A DNA stretch of 32,817 nt, taken from IMG/VR virus record IMGVR_UViG_3300033153_003873, positions 1-32,817 of that record, one strand, 5' to 3'. The position numbers and the translations under genes are program-made. The stretch's first letter is position 1. Every line of letters begins with the position of its first letter. Below are positions 1-12,262 of the stretch, one piece after another. Origin of the DNA: a virus. A model generated the notes under the pieces. It was not told the DNA's origin and did not search any database. It worked only from the letters and a program-made list of their open reading frames with translations.

Positions 1-105
1 CAATCTCTAATATAGTCACTCATTCTTTTACTCACTTTTTCAGATACATTAATAAGATCACGCTTTTCTGAATCAGTTAATGCAAAACACGTTATAGCGT
101 TTCTT
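1..105. repeat. Terminal direct repeat, left copy (circular-contig overlap)
   Basis: These 105 bases are identical to 32713-32817. An open reading frame continues without a break from the left copy into the unique sequence at 32712, which means the molecule was circular or assembled from circular or permuted reads. The simplest reading is an assembler overlap of a circular or circularly permuted genome. A true short terminal repeat of packaged DNA is the alternative. Confidence 0.9.
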
Positions 106-119
106 TTTTCTACAGCCAT
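1..119 (-). CDS. Ribbon-helix-helix (Arc/CopG-like) DNA-binding protein, N-terminal part
   Basis: This is the 5' part of a 50-residue protein whose 3' part lies at 32679-32712 across the circular join. The start ATG is at 119, with GGAGAG about five bases upstream. Residues 8-15 (NAITCFAL) look like the DNA-contacting beta strand, and residues 16-46 form two helices with the typical turn around MSDYIRDC, as in short Arc/CopG/MetJ-type repressors. Such proteins act as dimers that bind operators with two-fold symmetry. It is the first gene of the leftward operon and sits next to the 11-bp inverted repeat at 157-190, so it may regulate its own operon and perhaps the rightward genes. The fold is a motif judgement; the regulatory role is inference. 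Confidence 0.72.
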   Translation of the reverse strand, partial: MAVEKRNAITCFALTDSEKRDLINVSEKVSKRMSDYIRD

Positions 120-146
120 TTACTCTCCTTTATTTTAGATAACCCT

Positions 147-190
147 AGTATAATATATATCATCTTAATAACTTCTTAATAAGATGATAT
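147..190 (-). promoter_or_regulatory. Leftward early promoter with palindromic operator
   Basis: Read on the minus strand, TATACT at 152-147 is placed as a -10 box about 28 bases before the ribbon-helix-helix start codon. Just upstream lies a perfect inverted repeat with 11-base arms, ATATCATCTTA at 157-167 and its complement at 180-190, separated by 12 bases. It would cover the -35 region of this promoter. The position next to a repressor-like gene suggests an operator. A plus-strand TATAAT also occurs at 149-154, so transcription direction here is not certain. Confidence 0.55.
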
Positions 191-241
191 TAACTTTTAA
201 TTAAATATTCACACCATAAAAAGGAAACTAAAGACTTATTC

Positions 242-250
242 TGCTATAAT
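242..250 (+). promoter_or_regulatory. Rightward promoter with extended -10
   Basis: TGCTATAAT is a full extended -10 element. Transcription would begin near 257, exactly where the first hairpin of the following leader begins. No good -35 is seen, which is usual for Campylobacterota promoters. Confidence 0.6.
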
Positions 251-252
251 AA

Positions 253-425
253 AAATACGGGTGCTTTCTTCCCGTGTTTAATTGTTAAGATAATAAAATA
301 TAAGTGAGCGTCCAAACTCTCGAAAGTCCTTCACTTGAAGGGCGTTCACTTATAGGTTATTAATTTGGTGATAGATTGTTTGGACGCCTTCTGATCACAA
401 ACCTAAATTTTATTGTTCTGAAAGC
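253..425 (+). promoter_or_regulatory. Structured RNA leader A
   Basis: The RNA would begin with a hairpin (253-261 with 271-279, one wobble pair). Its 9-base loop holds GCTTTC (263-268), complementary to GAAAGC at 420-425, which covers the likely ribosome binding site of the small gene at 431. Between them lies a second set: TATAAGTGA (299-307) pairs with TCACTTATA (346-354) and extends six more pairs to 313/340; GCGTCCAAAC (308-317) pairs perfectly with GTTTGGACGC (378-387), crossing the first helix; CCTTC/GAAGG (328-332/337-341) is a small inner hairpin. The crossing pairs mean a pseudoknot or alternative folds. No U-rich terminator follows. Function is unknown. Confidence 0.55.
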
Positions 426-430
426 GTAAA

Positions 431-535
431 ATGAGAATATCTCAATATGAATATTTATCTTTTTTGGATAAATATAACCCACAACTTAAAATAAAATTTG
501 TAAAGTTTTTAATTAAAAGGGATATTATAGTATAA
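431..535 (+). CDS. Small hypothetical protein, 34 aa
   Basis: A short frame begins with ATG at 431 after GAAAGCGTAAA, which closely matches the start region of the gene at 8528 (AAAGGCGTAAA). It ends at TAA 533-535, inside the TATAAT of the next promoter. The product is basic and has no recognisable domain; aromatic and hydrophobic residues alternate in a way compatible with one amphipathic helix. Its ribosome binding site lies within the complement of the leader A hairpin loop. It could also be a non-coding part of the leader. Certainty is low to moderate. Confidence 0.4.
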   Translation: MRISQYEYLSFLDKYNPQLKIKFVKFLIKRDIIV

Positions 536-536
536 T
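531..536 (+). promoter_or_regulatory. Rightward promoter of the replication operon
   Basis: TATAAT lies about 7 bases upstream of the expected start near 543. The start coincides with the base of the long hairpin at 541-600. The preceding stretch (500-527) is very AT-rich with T-tracts, as in Campylobacterota promoters. Confidence 0.55.
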
Positions 537-540
537 GCCT

Positions 541-652
541 TATATCTTTATAAAAACAAGTGCCTTCTTGACGGACTCCACTTGTTTTTATAAGGGTATA
601 AAGAGTCCGTCAACTCTCCCTTTAAAAAATAAAAACATTGACGGTACAAAGG
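541..652 (+). promoter_or_regulatory. Structured RNA leader B, possible two-state switch
   Basis: Helix 1 pairs 541-562 with 579-600 (22 pairs, two of them G-U), with a 16-base loop. The loop segment TTGACGGACTC (568-578) is perfectly complementary to GAGTCCGTCAA (603-613). The 3' half of that segment, CCGTCAA (607-613), can instead pair with a second TTGACGG at 638-644. In that second state CCTTT (619-623) in the new loop is complementary to AAAGG (648-652), the ribosome binding site of the gene at 660. Full helix 1 and the 11-pair helix cannot both form completely because only two bases (601-602) would have to span 22 pairs, so competing folds are likely. This is by-eye pairing; no energies were computed. 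Confidence 0.6.
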
Positions 653-659
653 TACTAAA

Positions 660-848
660 ATGATACAAATTCCAAATGAAACACTATATGATATTGCAAT
701 GGCATCTCTTGAAATATTAAATGCTAGAGAAATAATAAGTAGTGAAAAAGACCCACTCCTAATTAAAAAGATGATTGTTAGAGAAGAAGTACAATATCAT
801 AAACTAATATGCTCTATTGCGGAAATAGGAGAACAAGATGGCAACTAA
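660..848 (+). CDS. Hypothetical early protein, 62 aa
   Basis: The ATG at 660 follows AAAGG with a 7-base gap. The protein is a charged, mostly helical sequence with no family I recognise. Its 3' end overlaps the initiator gene at 838 by 11 bases, so the two are probably translated together. Being the first gene after leader B, its translation is the likely target of that RNA structure, and through coupling it could set the level of the replication initiator. That role is inference. Confidence 0.75.
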   Translation: MIQIPNETLYDIAMASLEILNAREIISSEKDPLLIKKMIVREEVQYHKLICSIAEIGEQDGN

Positions 849-1407
849 AGGGATATGGGTACCAATAGAAATACTAAGAGATCATAGTTTAACAATGCAA
901 GAGAAGCTTGTATTGTTAGAAATTGGTCAACTTATGGAGCTTGATAATAAACAATGTTATGCCTCAAATGAACACTTCGCAAAGCTTTTAAATGTGAGCA
1001 GAAAAAGTGTCTCAAACACTATAAGCAATCTTGTTAAAAAGGGTGAGATTTCAGTTGAATTATCCGACAGAAACCACAAAAGATTACTATCCATAAAAAG
1101 TGGACAACCGTCCATAAAAAGTGGACAACCGTCCATAAAAAGTGGAGAGTCTAAAGATAATAAAACAAATAATAGAACAGTTATAGGCAACCCAACACTA
1201 ACAGAGATATTAGATATAGGCAAAAAACTAAACTATGATTCAAAATCTTGTACTAAATTTTATAACTATTATGAATCTATGGAATGGAAACGCGGAAGGA
1301 CAAAAATAAAAGATTTTGTGCCTCTTTTAAGAAATTGGAATATGAATGAAAAACCAAAGCCTTCTAAGCAAAAATTTACAGATGCTTCAACATTGGTATT
1401 AATATAA
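838..1407 (+). CDS. Replication initiator with winged-helix domain and internal iterons
   Basis: This 189-residue protein starts like phage lambda O and other Rep_O-type initiators: residues 1-75 form a winged helix-turn-helix domain (GIWVPIEIL, then an ASNEHFAKLLNVS-RKSVSN helix-turn-helix and a wing). Residues 85-105 are a seven-residue unit SIKSGQP repeated three times, encoded by 21-bp iterated DNA repeats. The C-terminal half (about 120-180) has a region resembling the helicase- or loader-binding part of such initiators. The start ATG is preceded by GGAGAAC. The stop overlaps the next ATG (TAATG). It would bind the repeats in its own gene and open the origin for the helicase encoded next. 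Confidence 0.82.
   Translation: MATKGIWVPIEILRDHSLTMQEKLVLLEIGQLMELDNKQCYASNEHFAKLLNVSRKSVSNTISNLVKKGEISVELSDRNHKRLLSIKSGQPSIKSGQPSIKSGESKDNKTNNRTVIGNPTLTEILDIGKKLNYDSKSCTKFYNYYESMEWKRGRTKIKDFVPLLRNWNMNEKPKPSKQKFTDASTLVLI
1090..1152. repeat. Iterons, probable origin of replication
   Basis: A 21-bp unit TCCATAAAAAGTGGACAACCG occurs at 1090-1110 and 1111-1131 and is followed by a partial copy (15 matching bases) from 1132. Each unit holds a short dyad GTCC/GGAC around ATAAAAAGT. An AT-rich stretch follows directly (1153-1180). Iterons lying inside the initiator gene and followed by AT-rich DNA are the arrangement known from oriLambda in gene O. There is no spacer diversity, so this is not a CRISPR array. 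Confidence 0.75.
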
Positions 1408-2207
1408 TGAATATAATTTCACTTGAAACAATAGAGTCTTCAACCGCAAGTTTTATTCTTGAAAACAAAATGCCTATGCCAAAAAATGCAGTTACTTTAT
1501 TAAGTGCTACAGGAGGACTAGGGAAAACAAGATATGCTTTGATTTGTGCTTCACATCATATTCACAATACAGGAGAGAATGTAGCATTATGGCTCACGGA
1601 AGATTACAAGGGTCAAGTTAGACATATTTTTAATGAATTGGTTAATGACGGGTTGGCAAAAGAGGGCACGATAGCAAAAATGTTCTTGATCTTAGACAAT
1701 CCCCCTCAGCTTGCAAAAAGAGTTGGCGGGATATTTACTGCAAACTATGAAGGGTTTGGAGAAATAGAGGTAAATTTAAAAAAGTATAATATTAAATTTA
1801 TAGTGTTTGATCCCCTACTTGCTTTTTATGGTGGAAACGAAAATGATAACAGTGAAGCCCGGGTATTTGTCCAGACCTTTGCAGAATTTGCGAAAGAAGC
1901 ACAAATAACAGTCTTGATTATTCACCATTCAAACAAAGACGGCAAATCAAGAGGAGCTTCAGCGTTCAGTGATGGTGTTAGGTGTAGATATGAAATGTAC
2001 CCGCCAAAAGACGGCAAAGGAGATACTGATATGAATTTATATAAAAAAGGCATTAGAGTGTTGTCTCTTGAAAAAGATAATTGGGGAGCTGCTAAGCCAT
2101 TTTTTAAAATGACCAAGGGTGAGCAGAAGGCAATGGTTAAAATATCAAAAGAATTTACAGAGGTTGTTGCTCCTTTTGAGATTGTATATGAGATGCCTTA
2201 TGCATAA
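1407..2207 (+). CDS. RepA-like replicative helicase (RecA-fold hexameric ATPase)
   Basis: The 266-residue protein belongs to the AAA_25/RepA group, as in RSF1010 RepA. Residues 31-42 contain the Walker A motif (SATGGLGKTRYA), a Walker B strand lies near residue 130 (FIVFDPLLAFYGG), and a conserved IIHHSNK motif near 172 is the sensor strand typical of the family. Such enzymes form rings that unwind DNA at the fork using ATP. It follows the initiator with overlapping stop and start and is followed by a primase, so the three form a replication unit. Confidence 0.85.
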   Translation: MNIISLETIESSTASFILENKMPMPKNAVTLLSATGGLGKTRYALICASHHIHNTGENVALWLTEDYKGQVRHIFNELVNDGLAKEGTIAKMFLILDNPPQLAKRVGGIFTANYEGFGEIEVNLKKYNIKFIVFDPLLAFYGGNENDNSEARVFVQTFAEFAKEAQITVLIIHHSNKDGKSRGASAFSDGVRCRYEMYPPKDGKGDTDMNLYKKGIRVLSLEKDNWGAAKPFFKMTKGEQKAMVKISKEFTEVVAPFEIVYEMPYA

Positions 2208-3039
2208 TTGTAATTTAGTATTGAGCTTTAACCCAACTCCAGACATGAATACTACAGAATTTAAAAGAAGATCGCTTGATTATGATTTTATGGAGACTGC
2301 AAAGGTATTAAAAATGAATGGCAGATACTCTAATTTTATTTTTAATAACGATTATCGGAAATCAGACAATTATCAAGCTAATATTTCAAATTGTATAATT
2401 TTAGATTTTGATGATGGTACAACTGTTGAAGAGTTTGAAAAAGATGCTTATTTTGCTTATGCTATAGGAACTACAAAATCACATAATATTGAAAAAAATA
2501 ATATTGTCTGTGAAAGGTTCAGGGTTATTATCCCAACAGAAACAGCAATAAGTCTAAACACTGAGGACTATTCAAACATGATGAGTGAATTGTTTTTAGA
2601 ATTTACTGGAGCAGACAAGGCTTGCAAGGACACAGCAAGGGCATATAGTGGATATGTGGGTGCAGAAGTTCAAATAAGGACAGGGGAGTATTTTGGTTGG
2701 GAGAAGTATTTTAAAAGTTATCTTGATAAAAAAGAGATAATGCGAAGATGGCAGGAAAAGGAAAGGGAACGATCTTCCCGGGAACATGAAGATGACGGAA
2801 CCAAAGTGGACTGGTATCGTGAAAACTGGCTAAATGAAATGATGCGATCGGTTTTAAAGGTTGATGAAAAATTCACAACAGGCAATAGAAATAATTCTCT
2901 GTATTCTTATGCAAGATTTTTTAAAGATTTAGAGCTAACTGATAGCGAAATAGTAGAAGCAGTTGAATGGATTAATAATATGGAGCTTCATGAACTGGAA
3001 GTTAGGCAAATCTTAAAAGGGATTAGGGTAGCAGCATGA
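2188..3039 (+). CDS. Archaeo-eukaryotic-type primase
   Basis: I place the start at ATG 2188, which overlaps the helicase gene by 20 bases; ATG 2200 is possible. The 283-residue product carries the three marks of the primase fold: ILDFDDGT (metal-binding acidic motif I) near residue 75, TTKSHN (motif II, S-x-H) near 98, and the strand CERFRVIIP that follows in phage and plasmid members. The C-terminal part is charged and helical and may correspond to a PriCT-like domain. It would make primers at the origin or fork opened by the preceding two proteins, as RepB' does beside RepA and RepC of RSF1010. Confidence 0.75.
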   Translation: MRCLMHNCNLVLSFNPTPDMNTTEFKRRSLDYDFMETAKVLKMNGRYSNFIFNNDYRKSDNYQANISNCIILDFDDGTTVEEFEKDAYFAYAIGTTKSHNIEKNNIVCERFRVIIPTETAISLNTEDYSNMMSELFLEFTGADKACKDTARAYSGYVGAEVQIRTGEYFGWEKYFKSYLDKKEIMRRWQEKERERSSREHEDDGTKVDWYRENWLNEMMRSVLKVDEKFTTGNRNNSLYSYARFFKDLELTDSEIVEAVEWINNMELHELEVRQILKGIRVAA

Positions 3040-3128
3040 AACACACAGCAAAAAGCAAATATGAGAATTTGACAGTTGGGCAAAAGAAGGTGAAGAGGCT
3101 AACACAGAAGGAGACATTATGGCACTAA
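3036..3128 (+). CDS. Small basic hypothetical protein, 30 aa
   Basis: This frame starts at ATG 3036 with a stop-start overlap (ATGA) with the primase gene and ends after the start of the next gene at 3119. The product is lysine-rich with no known domain. The tight overlap at both ends fits the style of the operon, but so short a frame could arise by chance. Confidence 0.35.
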   Translation: MKHTAKSKYENLTVGQKKVKRLTQKETLWH

Positions 3129-3466
3129 GTAGAAAAGATGGACAGAATAACGAAGGTGATTTGGTTGATAACTCTGGATATGATGCACAATATGAAAGAT
3201 GTAATTCGTGTCAATGGTTCGATAGAAAAGACGGTACTTGTGATCACTGTGCTTTTGGGCATCCGTATTTTGACTACAACGGGCTAAAGCCAAGTGAAGT
3301 TAAAGAGTGTGATATTTATGTTGAAGATGAGAGATTAAAATATGAATGGCAATGGGCTGTATATAATACAATGTCAAATAAATTTGAGCTAACCTCATTT
3401 CACAGCAAGCCAAACAACATGAATTGGATTAAATTCCATCCGAGCAAAAGAATAAAGAAGTTATAG
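3119..3466 (+). CDS. Cysteine-rich hypothetical protein
   Basis: The ATG is preceded by AAGGAGACATT, a strong ribosome binding site. The 115-residue protein has a cysteine cluster at residues 28-56 (CNSCQWF, CDHC, then a later C) typical of small phage proteins that bind zinc or iron-sulfur; the rest has no recognisable domain. A similar but shorter cysteine pattern occurs in the protein at 29497-29727. It is the last gene of the first replication unit, before the ssb promoter. Function is unknown. Confidence 0.75.
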   Translation: MALSRKDGQNNEGDLVDNSGYDAQYERCNSCQWFDRKDGTCDHCAFGHPYFDYNGLKPSEVKECDIYVEDERLKYEWQWAVYNTMSNKFELTSFHSKPNNMNWIKFHPSKRIKKL

Positions 3467-3560
3467 GTGTTGATAAATAAATAAGTGTTACACGTTATCA
3501 CACTCTCAATAATCATATGTAGGTAATGTGGCTTTGTTGGAGATATTGGTATAAAAAGAG

Positions 3561-3566
3561 TATAAT
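3561..3566 (+). promoter_or_regulatory. Promoter of the ssb operon
   Basis: TATAAT is followed by a leader of about 145 bases before the ssb start codon at 3718. The region 3467-3717 has no gene. It holds this promoter and leader C. Confidence 0.6.
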
Positions 3567-3599
3567 ATAACAAGTGATCGTTTAGATTTACTATGAGTG

Positions 3600-3710
3600 C
3601 CTACTCTCCAAATAGTAGGTTAACAAGAAAGATTTTAAATGCTACTTCTTCTTCAAATCCTCCAGATACGTCGGAGTAGCAGTATTTAAAATCATAATGT
3701 ATCATGGAGG
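3600..3710 (+). promoter_or_regulatory. ssb leader C: pseudoknot covering the ribosome binding site
   Basis: A first hairpin pairs CCTACT (3600-3605) with AGTAGG (3614-3619). A long helix pairs 3631-3646 with 3675-3680 and 3684-3693 (16 pairs, three-base bulge). Its loop contains CCTCCAGATAC (3659-3669), complementary to GTATCaTGGAGG (3699-3710) with one bulged base. That second arm includes GGAGG, the ribosome binding site of ssb, so the crossing helix would block translation. Phage T4 gene 32, also a single-strand-binding protein gene, is known to carry a leader pseudoknot through which the protein represses its own translation. The parallel is in design, not in sequence. Confidence 0.7.
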
Positions 3711-3717
3711 TACAACA

Positions 3718-4221
3718 ATGGCACTACCAACTTTAACCATTATCGGAAATATTCAGAAACTAGAAACCAGACGAACACAGACAGGTAAAAATATCACATC
3801 ATTAAATCTTAGCTGTGGTGATAAAAACGCCAAAGGTGAATATGACAATCTTTACATCAAGGCTGAATTTTGGGAAAAGCAAAGTGATTTTGTGTCACAA
3901 TATTTCAAAGAAGGTGATGTGATTATTGTAACAGGCAAACTTGTAACGACTAATTATACCAAGCAAGATGGTACGAAAGTATATGAAACAAAATTCCAAT
4001 TCCCTCAAGCTTCATTCGTTCCTAAGACTAAACAGCAAGACACTCAGACACAAGAAGACAGGGGATATTCAAACTCTAACCCACAGCAAAGTACACAAGT
4101 GCCCTCAAATGGTGGGGAGTATAGCTATCCTACTTCACAGCCACAAGGAGGAGCACTCCCCGATATAGACTTGGATACGGAAATTCCTTTTATGCCTATG
4201 AGTGGAAACCTTTATGTATAA
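3718..4221 (+). CDS. ssb: Single-stranded DNA-binding protein
   Basis: The start is ATG 3718, seven bases after GGAGG; an upstream in-frame ATG at 3697 lacks a site. The 167-residue protein has the OB fold of bacterial SSB in residues 1-105 (TIIGNIQKLE, LYIKAEFWEKQ, FKEGDVIIVTGKL), then a glutamine/asparagine/serine-rich linker, then an acidic tail DIDLDTEIPF. Bacterial SSB normally ends at such a tail, where the final phenylalanine docks partner proteins. Here nine more residues follow, overlapping the next gene. It coats single strands during replication and ERF-type annealing. Translation is probably controlled by leader C. Confidence 0.93.
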   Translation: MALPTLTIIGNIQKLETRRTQTGKNITSLNLSCGDKNAKGEYDNLYIKAEFWEKQSDFVSQYFKEGDVIIVTGKLVTTNYTKQDGTKVYETKFQFPQASFVPKTKQQDTQTQEDRGYSNSNPQQSTQVPSNGGEYSYPTSQPQGGALPDIDLDTEIPFMPMSGNLYV

Positions 4222-4399
4222 AGATAGAGAAAATAACACTATAAAAGTAGGCAACACCCTAAAGAACAAACACGACCAGTGGGGACGCGTAGAAAACATT
4301 CGCGGTGTCACAATGTTTGTTGAAAGACACGGCAACGGGGAGATAGCTAAGACTACAGTATTTAGAAAGCTTGATTTGAGTGAGTGGACAATCGCATGA
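4214..4399 (+). CDS. Hypothetical protein, 61 aa
   Basis: ATG 4214 follows GGAA with a six-base gap; GTG 4202 in the same frame is an alternative start. Either overlaps the end of ssb. The product is a small, beta-rich protein (VGNTLKNKHDQWGRV, then GVTMFVERHGNGEI) that looks like a short SH3-like barrel, but I do not recognise the family. Its stop overlaps the ATG of the next gene. Function is unknown. Confidence 0.7.
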   Translation: MYKDRENNTIKVGNTLKNKHDQWGRVENIRGVTMFVERHGNGEIAKTTVFRKLDLSEWTIA

Positions 4400-5178
4400 A
4401 ATATATAGCAACCATAAGCGGGGGGAAAGACTCTGTGACGATGTGTGACCTTTTGCTTAAAAATGGCTATCCAGTGGACTATATTATTTTTAATGATACT
4501 ACATCAGAGTTTGAAGTCATGTATATTTATATTGAAAAATTAAAAGAGTACTTTTTAGTAAGATATGGGAAGAAAATAATTGTGACAACACCAATTAGAA
4601 ATTTTAAAGACAGCATATTGAGAAAGGTAAAAAGAAGTAAAACTCCTCATAGGAATGGTCAGTACGTGGGACTACCTGTTGCGAGTAAAGGTGATGCAAT
4701 GTGTCATCTAAGAAAAACATTAAAAATAGACCCAACCGATAAATGGATAAGAAAAAACCTAAAGGGTATAACTTACAAAAAGTACATAGGGTATACAACA
4801 GAGGAAAAGTCTAGGGCAAAAAATACTTCTGGCAATGATATATATCCCCTAATTGAATATTTTAATATGAGTGAGATAGATTGTAAAAAATATTTAATTG
4901 AGAACGAGATGGAAAATGGTTTATATAAGCACTTTAACAGAACAGGGTGCAAGCTGTGTCCATTTAAATCAGAACAGGACTGGTGGCACATATATCACCA
5001 CTATAATGATGACTTTGAGGAAGCAAAAGAGATAGAGAAAGAGCTATTAGAAAAGCAAGCAGAATATGTTTATTTTTTAGGCAAGAGAACTTTACTAGAG
5101 TGGGAAGCAATATTTAAGCAAGGGAGTCTTTTTAATTTTTCAGATGAGCAGCTAAAAGACTGTTTTTGTAAGATATAG
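4396..5178 (+). CDS. PP-loop ATPase, PAPS-reductase-like
   Basis: The start ATG 4396 overlaps the previous stop (ATGA). The 260-residue protein begins with the PP-loop SGGKDS (residues 7-12) that binds ATP or adenylated sulfate and activates substrates by adenylation. Near residue 185 it has a CKLCPF motif typical of phage members of the PAPS-reductase-like group, probably for an iron-sulfur cluster or zinc. True sulfate reduction is unlikely in a phage. Related PP-loop enzymes act in DNA or tRNA modification (for example DndC or QueC-type reactions), but nothing here identifies the substrate. Position in the replication region would fit DNA modification or counter-defence; that is inference. 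Confidence 0.82.
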   Translation: MKYIATISGGKDSVTMCDLLLKNGYPVDYIIFNDTTSEFEVMYIYIEKLKEYFLVRYGKKIIVTTPIRNFKDSILRKVKRSKTPHRNGQYVGLPVASKGDAMCHLRKTLKIDPTDKWIRKNLKGITYKKYIGYTTEEKSRAKNTSGNDIYPLIEYFNMSEIDCKKYLIENEMENGLYKHFNRTGCKLCPFKSEQDWWHIYHHYNDDFEEAKEIEKELLEKQAEYVYFLGKRTLLEWEAIFKQGSLFNFSDEQLKDCFCKI

Positions 5179-6672: not shown

Positions 6673-7197
6673 TTGACGCCTAAACAAATTGCTTTCTGTA
6701 ATGAATACTTAATAGACCTCAATGCCACACAGGCAGCAATAAGGGCAGGATATAGCAAAAAAACTGCATTTATTATAGGACACGAAAACCTAAAAAAACC
6801 TAATATTGAAAAATATTTAACAGAAATTAGAACAAAACTACAAGAAAGAACAAACATAACTCTTGATAAGGTAGTGAACGAATTGTCAAAAATAGCGCTA
6901 TTTGACATTAGGGGAATATATGATAATGAGGGGGGGATTATACATCCTCACAATTTGTCAGATGATGTAGCGGCAGTAGTGTCAGGGTTTAAAAGCAGGA
7001 GAGAGATAACGAGAGGGAATAGTGATGAAGATAATAGTATTGCTTTTATTGACGAATATAAAACATATGATAAGACCAAAGCACTTGATATGTTAATGAA
7101 GCACCTTGGAGGGTATGAGAAAGATAAAGATATTCCAAGAGATGATAGTATTATAAATAATATATCGAAAGCGATAGCTGATGGTTTGCCAAATTAA
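6673..7197 (+). CDS. terS: Terminase small subunit
   Basis: Translation starts at TTG 6673, set by the strong site AAGGAGG seven bases earlier. The 174-residue protein fits the Terminase_2 family: LTPKQ-like opening, FCNEYLIDLNATQAAIRAGYS with the helix-turn-helix in residues 5-30, and IGHENLKKPNIEKYL. It recognises the packaging site on phage DNA and recruits the large subunit. The C-terminal part is helical and charged as expected for oligomer formation. It overlaps the large subunit gene by 17 bases. Confidence 0.9.
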   Translation: MTPKQIAFCNEYLIDLNATQAAIRAGYSKKTAFIIGHENLKKPNIEKYLTEIRTKLQERTNITLDKVVNELSKIALFDIRGIYDNEGGIIHPHNLSDDVAAVVSGFKSRREITRGNSDEDNSIAFIDEYKTYDKTKALDMLMKHLGGYEKDKDIPRDDSIINNISKAIADGLPN

Positions 7198-8497
7198 CGA
7201 CTATCTGTCTGACGTGAATCAAAAACGATGGTATAGGCTTATTGACCATCCAGTACAATTAGCATTAGTGACAGATAAGATAAGGTTTAAAGTTGTTCCT
7301 GCTGGTAGGCGTTCAGGAAAGACAGAAAGGGCTAAACGATTTATAGTAAAGGAAGCACTAAGAAATTCACAAGAGAGCTACTTTGTGGCTGCACCTACAA
7401 GAGATCAAGTTAAAAAAATATATTGGCTTGATATTAAAAAGCTTATACCCTTTTCGCAAATAGATAAAATATCAGAGACAGATTTATCAATAGTGTTATT
7501 GAATCAAACAACCATTACACTAATAGGACTAGATAAGCCCGAAAGAATAGAGGGGGTATTTTGGACGGGGGGAGTAATTGATGAGATAGCAGACATTAAG
7601 CCTGACGCGTGGGAAAATCATATATCCCCGGCACTTGATACGTATAACCCCTTGAGACCAGACTATTTGGCTTGGTGCTGGCTAATAGGTGTTCCAGATG
7701 GGTATAATCATTACTACGACATGGCACAATATGCAGAGAATAGCAAAGACAAAGACTGGAAGCTATACCATTGGAAGTCCGCAGACATATTGCCTAAAAA
7801 AACTATAGAAGCCGCCAAAAGAAGAATGAGCGATAAACAATTCAAACAAGAGTTTGAGGCGTCATTCTTAACCACTACTGGCAGAATTTATGAAGATTAT
7901 TCGAAAGATAACCATACTCACGAAACCATAAAAGAGCATGAGCAGTTATTATGGATGCATGACTTTAACTATACCCCTATGAGTTCAGCTATTGGTGTAT
8001 TGCGTGATGGAAATATATATATATTGGACGAAATCATATTAGAGAGTGCAATATCGACACAAAGCACATTGGAGTTTGTAGATAGATATAAAGATCATAA
8101 AAATAAACATGTTTTAGTATATGGAGATCCGGCGGGCAAAGCAGGTGAAAAGCATGGTCACTCATCGGACTATACACAAATAGAGGACACATTAAGAGCC
8201 AACGGCTGGAGCTTTGAGAGAAAAGTGAAGAGAAAAGCCCCGGCAATAAAAGATCGACAAAATGCAGTCCGGGCAAAAATAAAGAATACAATAGGAAAAG
8301 TGTCTCTTTATGTGAACCCAGCAAAGGCAAAATATGCAGATAAAGGGCTTTCAACCGTTCAGGCAAAAAAAGGAAGTACTTTTCAAGAAGTAGAAACAGA
8401 ATACCAACACATCACAACAGGAATAGGGTATTATATAGATTATGAATATCCAATTAACAAAACAACACTGTCTAACAGGTCAATTAGTTATGCGTAA
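7181..8497 (+). CDS. terL: Terminase large subunit
   Basis: The 438-residue protein is a full-length packaging motor. Residues 40-48 (PAGRRSGKT) are the Walker A motif of the ATPase, a Walker B-like GGVIDEIAD lies near residue 130, and the C-terminal nuclease domain shows MHDFNYTPMS near 263 and VYGDPAG near 313 with the acidic residues that bind metal in the RNase H-like fold. It pumps DNA into the prohead through the portal and cuts the concatemer. A promoter-like element follows its stop directly. Confidence 0.95.
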   Translation: MVCQINDYLSDVNQKRWYRLIDHPVQLALVTDKIRFKVVPAGRRSGKTERAKRFIVKEALRNSQESYFVAAPTRDQVKKIYWLDIKKLIPFSQIDKISETDLSIVLLNQTTITLIGLDKPERIEGVFWTGGVIDEIADIKPDAWENHISPALDTYNPLRPDYLAWCWLIGVPDGYNHYYDMAQYAENSKDKDWKLYHWKSADILPKKTIEAAKRRMSDKQFKQEFEASFLTTTGRIYEDYSKDNHTHETIKEHEQLLWMHDFNYTPMSSAIGVLRDGNIYILDEIILESAISTQSTLEFVDRYKDHKNKHVLVYGDPAGKAGEKHGHSSDYTQIEDTLRANGWSFERKVKRKAPAIKDRQNAVRAKIKNTIGKVSLYVNPAKAKYADKGLSTVQAKKGSTFQEVETEYQHITTGIGYYIDYEYPINKTTLSNRSISYA

Positions 8498-11603: not shown

Positions 11604-12182
11604 TTATATTAAAAGTAATTTAGTGGGCATTGAGGCACTCTTTTTGAGATTACAGGCACGGCATAGCCAGACAACATTATCTATACTGTGTGTGCCGCCT
11701 TTAGACAGGGGGACATGGTGGTCTAGGTGTTTATTTTCGGATAAATCTATATTGCAATTATTGCATTGATTGTTTTGCTGAATGAGAAGATTTTGTAGCT
11801 CTTTAGTGAGTGGGTAGCGTATCACCATTGGCAAGTTATATCTCTTTGTCTTTATTAAGTGTCTTCTTTTTGCCTCACTATTCAAGTGACTAGTTCTTCC
11901 TTTTTCTGTCTGTCTATATTTTTGACCTATCTCTTTTATCTTTGCTTTGTTGTTGTCTCTATATTTTCTATCTGATGATACTCTGTTTTTGTTAATATTT
12001 TCTTTGTTTAGTGTTCTGTTTTTTAGTATTGCGTCAGAGTTTACAGTTCGGTATTCTTTCATGTATATGTAGGTACATTCTTTGCATTTATTTTGCGTGT
12101 TGCCTGTGTCTTTTCGAGTAGCAAAGCTTGATGTGTTTTTTGTGGTGTTGCAGTATTTACATTGTTTAGTAGTTGTTAACAT
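11604..12182 (-). CDS. HNH endonuclease, likely free-standing homing type
   Basis: The 192-residue protein has an N-terminal zinc ribbon (CKYC, then CKEC), a long basic helical middle that likely contacts DNA, and a C-terminal HNH nuclease domain: CNNC, LDHHVPLSKGGTHSIDNVVWLCRACN, with the catalytic His pair at the start of that run. It lies antisense between the minor head and scaffold genes, with its own promoter. Its ribosome binding site GAGGAG is complementary to the loop of a hairpin at the very start of its mRNA, so translation is probably controlled by that pseudoknot. It is the first gene of a three-gene leftward cassette. Confidence 0.88.
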   Translation of the reverse strand: MLTTTKQCKYCNTTKNTSSFATRKDTGNTQNKCKECTYIYMKEYRTVNSDAILKNRTLNKENINKNRVSSDRKYRDNNKAKIKEIGQKYRQTEKGRTSHLNSEAKRRHLIKTKRYNLPMVIRYPLTKELQNLLIQQNNQCNNCNIDLSENKHLDHHVPLSKGGTHSIDNVVWLCRACNLKKSASMPTKLLLI

Positions 12183-12187
12183 TTTAA

Positions 12188-12223
12188 CTCCTCAATAGTT
12201 AAGCAAGAGATTGAGGCTCTTGC
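12188..12223 (-). promoter_or_regulatory. Pseudoknot leader D over the HNH ribosome binding site
   Basis: On the minus strand the mRNA should begin near 12223. Its first seven bases GCAAGAG (12223-12217) pair with CTCTTGC (12209-12203), leaving only CCTCAAT (12216-12210) as loop. That loop is perfectly complementary to ATTGAGG (12196-12190), which includes GAGG of the ribosome binding site GAGGAG, five bases before ATG 12182. The result is a compact H-type pseudoknot with two 7-pair stems, no unpaired loop bases at two of the junctions and a six-base connector. Confidence 0.75.
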
Positions 12224-12229
12224 ACTTTT

Positions 12230-12262
12230 ATTATAACATAATCAAAATAAATATGTTATAAT
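12230..12262. promoter_or_regulatory. Symmetric back-to-back promoters
   Basis: A perfect inverted repeat with 11-base arms (12230-12240 and 12252-12262) is separated by 11 bases. Each arm reads outward as TATGTTATAAT, an extended -10. The right arm serves the scaffold and coat genes, and the left arm serves the HNH cassette. The -10 boxes point away from each other, so the two polymerases would compete for the same DNA. The dyad could also bind a regulator. Confidence 0.65.

Follow-up and report, generated by a model that had tools for sequence, protein, structure and literature searches.

In each of the four leaders analysed in the window, the whole 32,817-nucleotide stretch of viral DNA, the loop of a predicted hairpin is complementary to sequence further downstream beyond the level seen in shuffled sequence (Table 1). 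The leaders fall into two classes: those of the single-strand DNA-binding protein gene (ssb, leader 3) and the HNH endonuclease gene (leader 4), in which the loop pairs with the SD, and the two leaders ahead of the replication operon (leaders 1 and 2), in which the loop's partner lies immediately 3' of the hairpin. Judging from sequence, we lean towards these leaders being cis-acting translation controls of phage genes whose dosage needs control. Similar folds on some of the same genes in related phages suggest, by analogy, a control of translation like the T4 gene 32 switch. The host of the window phage likely belongs to the Campylobacterota.

Table 1. Features of the four leaders and of the genes they precede (positions in the window)
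Feature	Position	Strand	Basis or remark
Leader 1 -10 element TATAAT (TGCTATAAT)	245-250	+	sequence, consensus only
Leader 1 5' hairpin ACGGG/CCCGT	257-275	+	loop 261-268 weakly complementary to 420-427, p = 0.04
Leader 1 main hairpin TATAAGTGA/TCACTTATA	299-354	+	extended form 299-313/340-354; p = 0.002
Leader 1 loop strand GCGTCCAAAC	308-317	+	10-bp pair with 378-387, p = 0.001
Leader 1 partner GTTTGGACGC	378-387	+	43 nt ahead of ATG
34-aa ORF behind leader 1, reality uncertain	431-535	+	open frame only; no family match
Leader 2 -10 element TATAAT	531-536	+	sequence
Leader 2 long hairpin	540-601	+	core 548-562/579-593, 15 bp; up to 23 bp with GU
Leader 2 loop strand TTGACGGACTC	568-578	+	11-bp pair with 603-613, p = 0.0005
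GGTATAAAGAGT-loop-ACTCT block	595-618	+	common to orthologous G001 leader
Leader 2 partner GAGTCCGTCAA	603-613	+	46 nt ahead of ATG
Second TTGACGG copy adjoining SD	638-644	+	alternative partner of 607-613
Replication operon first gene, 62 aa	660-848	+	
Replication initiator	838-1407	+	HTH_36; DnaD/O-like
ssb leader -10 element	3561-3566	+	promoter-consensus scan
ssb leader hairpin GATTTTAAAT-GCTACT/AGTAGC-AGT-ATTTAAAATC	3631-3693	+	p = 0.007
ssb leader loop CCTCCA	3659-3664	+	pairs with SD, p = 0.012
SD of ssb, TGGAGG	3705-3710	+	complementary to loop 3659-3664
Single-strand DNA-binding protein gene	3718-4221	+	phrog_44
HNH endonuclease gene	11604-12182	-	
HNH SD region ATTGAGG	12190-12196	-	complementary to whole 7-nt loop 12216-12210
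HNH leader hairpin GCAAGAG-CCTCAAT-CTCTTGC	12203-12223	-	begins at predicted first base; p = 0.005
HNH gene -10 TATAAT (TGTTATAAT)	12230-12235	-	sequence

Leader sequences and coordinates in the initial annotation agree with the window. With each hairpin loop held fixed and the downstream part shuffled, the strongest pairs of leaders 1-4 gave p = 0.001, 0.0005, 0.012 and 0.007, respectively. A ranking of folds by the stacking energies of their paired stems placed leaders 1 and 2 as the two best H-type fold regions of the window, with leader 3 below them and leader 4 outside the top 16.

It had been proposed that the loop is complementary to the ribosome binding site in all four leaders. This is borne out for ssb and the HNH gene; in leaders 1 and 2, the strong pair sits 43-46 nt ahead of the start codon. 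The pair originally proposed for leader 1, loop GTGCTTTC (261-268) with GAAAGCGT (420-427), is weak (6 Watson-Crick and 2 GU pairs, p = 0.04), and the pair formed by the main hairpin is far stronger and leaves the RBS untouched. Similarly, the loop-to-SD pair of leader 2, GTGCCTT (560-566) with AAGGTAC (649-655), is weak (6 Watson-Crick and 1 GU pairs, p = 0.03) and costs 3 bp of stem. The full 23-bp stem of leader 2 is sterically incompatible with its 11-bp pair, so that the base of the stem would have to open.

The position of leaders 1 and 2 ahead of the replication operon, with iterons inside the initiator gene (1090-1146), raises the alternative that they are DNA-level or RNA-RNA elements of a replicon, either origin-proximal hairpins or a plasmid-like leader (IncI/IncB) under antisense-RNA control. 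In the rep leaders of IncI, IncB and IncL/M plasmids, the pseudoknot is the activating element and is blocked by an antisense RNA; leaders 1 and 2 resemble them in that a replication initiator is preceded by a stem-loop with a loop that pairs further downstream. The competing partners for 607-613 in leader 2 would also fit such a reading. However, a consensus scan of the minus strand between 180 and 700 detected nothing resembling a promoter, setting these leaders apart from the plasmid ones, and on this ground we rejected antisense-RNA control of leaders 1 and 2. Moreover, the iterons put the likely origin inside the initiator gene, away from the leaders, and a comparable leader precedes the VRR-NUC gene of the relative G003. 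We consider the replicon alternative improbable.

Translation control, the reading we favour, draws on relatives of the replication operon. The orthologous initiator operon of the related phage G001 also has a pseudoknot leader (p = 0.05, loop fixed and downstream part shuffled), and the two initiators share 37-39% identity. Leader 2 and its G001 counterpart both contain the invariant GGTATAAAGAGT..ACTCT block; their loop-partner bases differ, and each is complementary to its own loop (TTGACGG:CCGTCAA; GCCAAC:GTTGGC). The conserved GGUAUAAAGAG element ahead of the initiator operon may represent a new RNA family. A 12-nt block that stays invariant in two divergent leaders while the flanking pairs change could be expected of a riboswitch-like element in which a small molecule, with GGUAUAAAGAG between the hairpin and the pseudoknot strand, controls the replication operon. 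Yet Rfam covariance models gave no match at E<=5, and the element has only two members. The GGTATAAAGAGT..ACTCT block was matched by 29 and 58 stretches in two pattern scans of IMG/VR, with a hairpin and loop match only in G001. A riboswitch is very unlikely. Four further initiator relatives that were inspected (L083, L084, L089 and L091) have no such leader.

In the leaders of ssb, a pseudoknot is predicted at the sequence level in both the window (p = 0.007) and G001 (p = 0.002) by a test of the whole leader. The G001 ssb operon carries an 11-bp loop-SD pair (p = 0.001, downstream part shuffled). Covariation is thin, since there are only two orthologous sequences each for the ssb and initiator leaders. 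The ssb genes of G003 and L003 are without a leader, and the upstream sequence of the SSB relatives L149, L153, L155 and L156 showed no leader pseudoknot. As the initial annotation held, a single design recurs in differing sequences, and it extends to other phages: besides the G001 ssb operon, a DUF6291 gene of Nitratiruptor phages NrS-2 and NrS-3 is preceded by a 17-bp stem whose loop matches the SD over 11 bp, and the L061 HNH gene repeats the window HNH design with a predicted 8 bp on the SD. G003 adds two or three pseudoknot leaders, ahead of its GIY-YIG (p = 0.0005), VRR-NUC (p = 0.05) and 20013 (p = 0.07) genes, all three values again from shuffling downstream of a fixed loop. In Nitratiruptor phages, we found no VRR-NUC leader element, and the region looks coding.

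The proposal of a genome-wide set of such leaders found only partial support. Among curated leaders of three phages, 8 of 27 exceeded shuffles at p<=0.017 in the whole-leader test, but an automated survey found no significant enrichment over leaders of other phages (6 of 44 versus 12 of 170, p = 0.14). These 12 control leaders, exceeding shuffles at p<=0.02, show that many phage leaders do so, as would be expected if the leaders were structured 5' UTRs without a switch, giving RNase protection or passive tuning, with loop complementarities partly as by-products. Consistent with this alternative, three hairpins (leaders 1, 2 and 4) start at the predicted 5' end of the transcript or close to it, in agreement with the initial annotation; that of leader 3 does not. 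Against it, pairs of 6-11 bp between loop and downstream sequence remain significant when the hairpin is kept constant, and the SD is the target of the loop in both ssb leaders despite their differing sequences. The automated survey covered 51 family leaders, of which only these two ssb leaders gave SD-covering matches (1 in 1275). In other phages, SD-covering pairs occur at close to chance frequency overall (22 of 837 at p<=0.02). We regard unswitched UTRs as possible and clearly less probable than translation control. A scan for kissing loops on SDs gave 90 matches versus 87 in reversed decoys. A generalised kissing-loop reading, with a second hairpin around the partner strand in leaders 2 and 4 and the L061 leader, was rejected, as it did not rise above shuffles (combined p = 0.38).

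Under translation control, the two classes would act differently. In class A (the window ssb and HNH genes, the G001 ssb operon, the NrS-2/3 DUF6291 gene and the L061 HNH gene), the hairpin would fold first on the nascent mRNA and its loop would then capture the SD, leaving ribosome binding poor until the fold is opened. In class B (both window replication-operon leaders, the G001 initiator operon, and the G003 VRR-NUC and GIY-YIG genes), the loop would pair just 3' of the hairpin, and a 43-59 nt AU-rich stretch with the RBS would remain downstream of the pseudoknot. An AU-rich spacer would be predicted from base composition. As a working model, negative feedback is the most likely: the phage SSB or another replication protein would keep the leaders shut when ssDNA is scarce.

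In the T4 gene 32 operator, binding of the SSB (gp32) begins at a pseudoknot and extends across the RBS (PMC535899, PMC3014915). The operators of T4, T2 and RB69 resemble the present leaders in serving phage ssb or replication genes and, for class B, in placing the RBS in an AU-rich stretch of ~40-60 nt behind a 5' pseudoknot. Unlike in those phages, the class B fold here sits on replication-operon and endonuclease genes, the predicted pseudoknot of the ssb leaders covers the SD directly, and the hairpins are much longer (9-23 bp). Accordingly, an RBS within an unstructured AU-rich stretch is seen only in class B leaders (43-59 nt) and in neither ssb leader. The SSB here is a member of the bacterial OB-fold family rather than a gp32 protein. 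By analogy, autoregulation by SSB in the manner of T4 gene 32 is plausible. It is doubtful that the pseudoknot leaders of this small-phage family, probably of Campylobacterota, constitute a common translational regulon that responds to SSB and takes in ssb, the replication initiator operon and nucleases; such a regulon would match the single T4 gene 32 operator across several genes and with an independent origin. If a second, unrelated phage lineage used loop-SD pseudoknots for ssb and replication genes, this form of control would have evolved repeatedly. The E. coli rpsO/S15 operator likewise places a pseudoknot where translation of the controlled gene begins; here the genes are phage genes, no r-protein is involved and the sequence is different.

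For the mobile endonuclease, the fold may simply hold expression low. In the window, its SD is sequestered by a predicted 7-bp pairing (p = 0.007); alternatively, ATTGAGG (12196-12190) could sit in a hairpin TTAACT-ATTGAGG-AGTTAA. T4-type homing endonuclease genes (I-TevI, Aeh1 mobE and T4 segB) have RBS-sequestering hairpins (PMC2988022), likewise hiding the RBS of a free-standing endonuclease gene in RNA structure, by a plain hairpin in contrast to the loop-SD pairing here. Transcripts from a T4-type late promoter escape the hairpin, whereas the window HNH transcripts would not: the predicted -10 element lies upstream, and transcription from the gene's own promoter would begin at the fold, so that every transcript would carry it.

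No phage DNA similar to positions 1-4500 was found, and the replication module is mostly absent from the terminase relatives (80 loci). The motif GTGCYTWCT, suggested to link three of the leaders, occurs exactly three times in the window, each time in a leader, with 1.05 copies expected. We rejected it as a shared signal, since in two relatives all its copies fall outside the leaders identified here; its common occurrence is probably a coincidence. The leaders are compact, at about 50-180 nt, and suitable for testing in reporter strains.

We listed all inverted matches for the four window leaders, sought H-type folds over the whole window by stacking energy, and tested pairings against dinucleotide shuffles. 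The top-ranked fold of the window is leader 2 and the second is leader 1, both lying before the replication initiator operon. In each, the start codon lies 43-46 nt downstream of the strong-pair partner, so the strong pairing leaves the ribosome binding site (RBS) unhidden. The initial annotation had proposed that all four hairpin loops are complementary to the Shine-Dalgarno site (SD) of the next gene. This stands for leaders 3 and 4 (p=0.012 and p=0.007 against shuffles), but the strong pairs of leaders 1 and 2 fall elsewhere, and their loop-to-SD pairs reach only p=0.04 and p=0.03. Taken together, the four proposed pairs exceed shuffles with a combined p of about 1e-4. Strand 607-613 of leader 2 has alternative partners, TTGACGG in the loop (568-574) or a second TTGACGG adjoining the SD (638-644), and this choice would make a two-state switch possible.

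Leaders and related features, with their positions and pairings
Feature	Position	Stem	Strong loop pair	Loop-to-SD pair
Leader 1, initiator operon (+)	308-317 with 378-387	9-15 bp	10 bp	GTGCTTTC with GAAAGCGT
Leader 2, initiator operon (+)	568-578 with 603-613	15 bp, up to 23 bp with GU	TTGACGGACTC with GAGTCCGTCAA, 11 bp	GTGCCTT with AAGGTAC
Leader 3, ssb (+)	hairpin 3631-3693			CCTCCA with TGGAGG
Leader 4, HNH endonuclease (-)	hairpin 12223-12203			CCTCAAT with ATTGAGG
G001 ssb leader		12 bp		TTTCCAAACGG with CCGTTTGGAGG, 11 bp (9 WC, 2 GU)
L061 AP2-HNH leader (-)	2993-3055			8 bp
NrS-2/NrS-3 leader, upstream of NrS3_41	L146 4570-4656	17 bp		11 bp
Window ssb gene	3718-4221
G001 ssb gene	L132 8731-9168
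Window initiator-gene repeats	1090-1146
Window terminase gene	7181-8497

We propose that the leaders split into class A, in which the loop pairs with the SD, and class B, in which it pairs just 3′ of its own hairpin. Class A folds would close the SD directly, and class B folds would leave a 43-59 nt AU-rich stretch bearing the RBS downstream. The class B layout matches the published one of T4 gene 32, in which gp32 first nucleates at a pseudoknot, from where it spreads to the RBS (PMC535899, PMC3014915). Translation control seems, on balance, the best reading of the leaders, whose sequences suggest translational operators built as loop pseudoknots, with SSB as a plausible regulator. The genes served, ssb, the initiator operon and free-standing endonucleases, are ones that a phage has reason to dose.

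The ssb operon of G001, a related phage contig, opens with a hairpin whose loop pairing covers the whole SD. Alignment of the window SSB with that of G001 gives ~39% identity, yet the two share the C-terminal linker QEDRGYSN. In an automated survey of 51 family leaders, the only two SD-covering matches were these two ssb leaders, which is the best unbiased point. The ssb genes of a second related contig (G003) and of locus L003 have no leader and directly follow their neighbor, so such control is not universal.

At the left end of the window, which is an IMG/VR virus record, lies a replication module: a 62-aa gene, an HTH initiator matching Pfam HTH_36, a primase/helicase-like ATPase, a primase-like gene and ssb. 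The sole close relative of this initiator in IMG/VR (37-39% identity) lies on G001 (35.9 kb), and the leader there lines up its parts as in the window: a long hairpin, GGTATAAAGAGT, a short segment of variable sequence, and finally ACTCT. In both phages this variable segment complements the loop of its own hairpin (G001, GCCAAC with GTTGGC; window, TTGACGG with CCGTCAA); thus, the block is kept and the pairing bases have altered together. The pair is retained in a relative through compensated bases, a pattern that would be expected under selection on it, in two sequences only. Within the window initiator gene, 2.7 perfect copies of a 21-bp unit, TCCATAAAAAGTGGACAACCG, resemble lambda O-gene iterons and mark a likely replication origin. 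The window terminase is 77-80% identical to those of contigs with differing replication modules, and mosaicism among the terminase-sharing contigs is strong. An Rfam search with the window gave no match at E<=5.

The L061 endonuclease gene, of a different HNH type from that behind leader 4, has a promoter-like TTATACT and a leader arranged like leader 4, in which the loop holding the SD complements that of the preceding hairpin. In G003, whose terminase is 77% identical to the window's, pseudoknot leaders precede a VRR-NUC gene and a GIY-YIG endonuclease gene, with a weaker one before gene 20013. Among the loci compared, 3 of 14 endonuclease genes carry a strong fold of the loop-pairing kind (window leader 4, L061 and the G003 GIY gene). 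RBS hiding is known for homing endonuclease genes, where a late promoter yields transcripts that escape the hairpin (PMC2988022). In contrast, the predicted transcription start of the window HNH gene is at the hairpin, so every transcript would carry the fold. Around position 9037 of L046, the SD of an HNH gene lies in a plain hairpin (AGTGGTATC/GATACCACT) directly 5′ of the ATG.

The suggestion of a genome-wide set fared unevenly. On a curated list covering the window, G001 and G003, 8/27 distinct leaders lie above shuffles at p<=0.017 (28 if the leader-4 region is entered once for each strand), but enrichment over other phages in the automated survey was not significant (6/44 vs 12/170, p=0.14). 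In other phages, SD-covering pairs occur overall at close to the chance rate (22/837). Combining the nine loop-to-downstream tests gives p about 3e-12, which overstates the case because most of these leaders were picked for looking strong. Placement of the partner strand always inside a second hairpin was unsupported (p=0.38). The three leader copies of GTGCYTWCT first noted are the only ones in the window (1.05 expected), but none of the copies in two related phages falls in a leader identified there. Overall, the original observation is partly confirmed and its interpretation partly supported.

A further fold with a loop-SD pair occurs in NrS-2/NrS-3, Nitratiruptor phages with Campylobacterota hosts, and ends one base before the ATG of NrS3_41. 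This gene encodes a DUF6291 protein that, from gene position, we would guess to be a replication initiator. These phages are cultured, and the NrS3_41 leader is a good experimental target. At the corresponding place in NrS-4, upstream of NrS4_26 (L147 4130-4195), the SD appears to be sequestered in the plain stem of a GC-rich hairpin (ACCCCTTG/AAGGGGGT).
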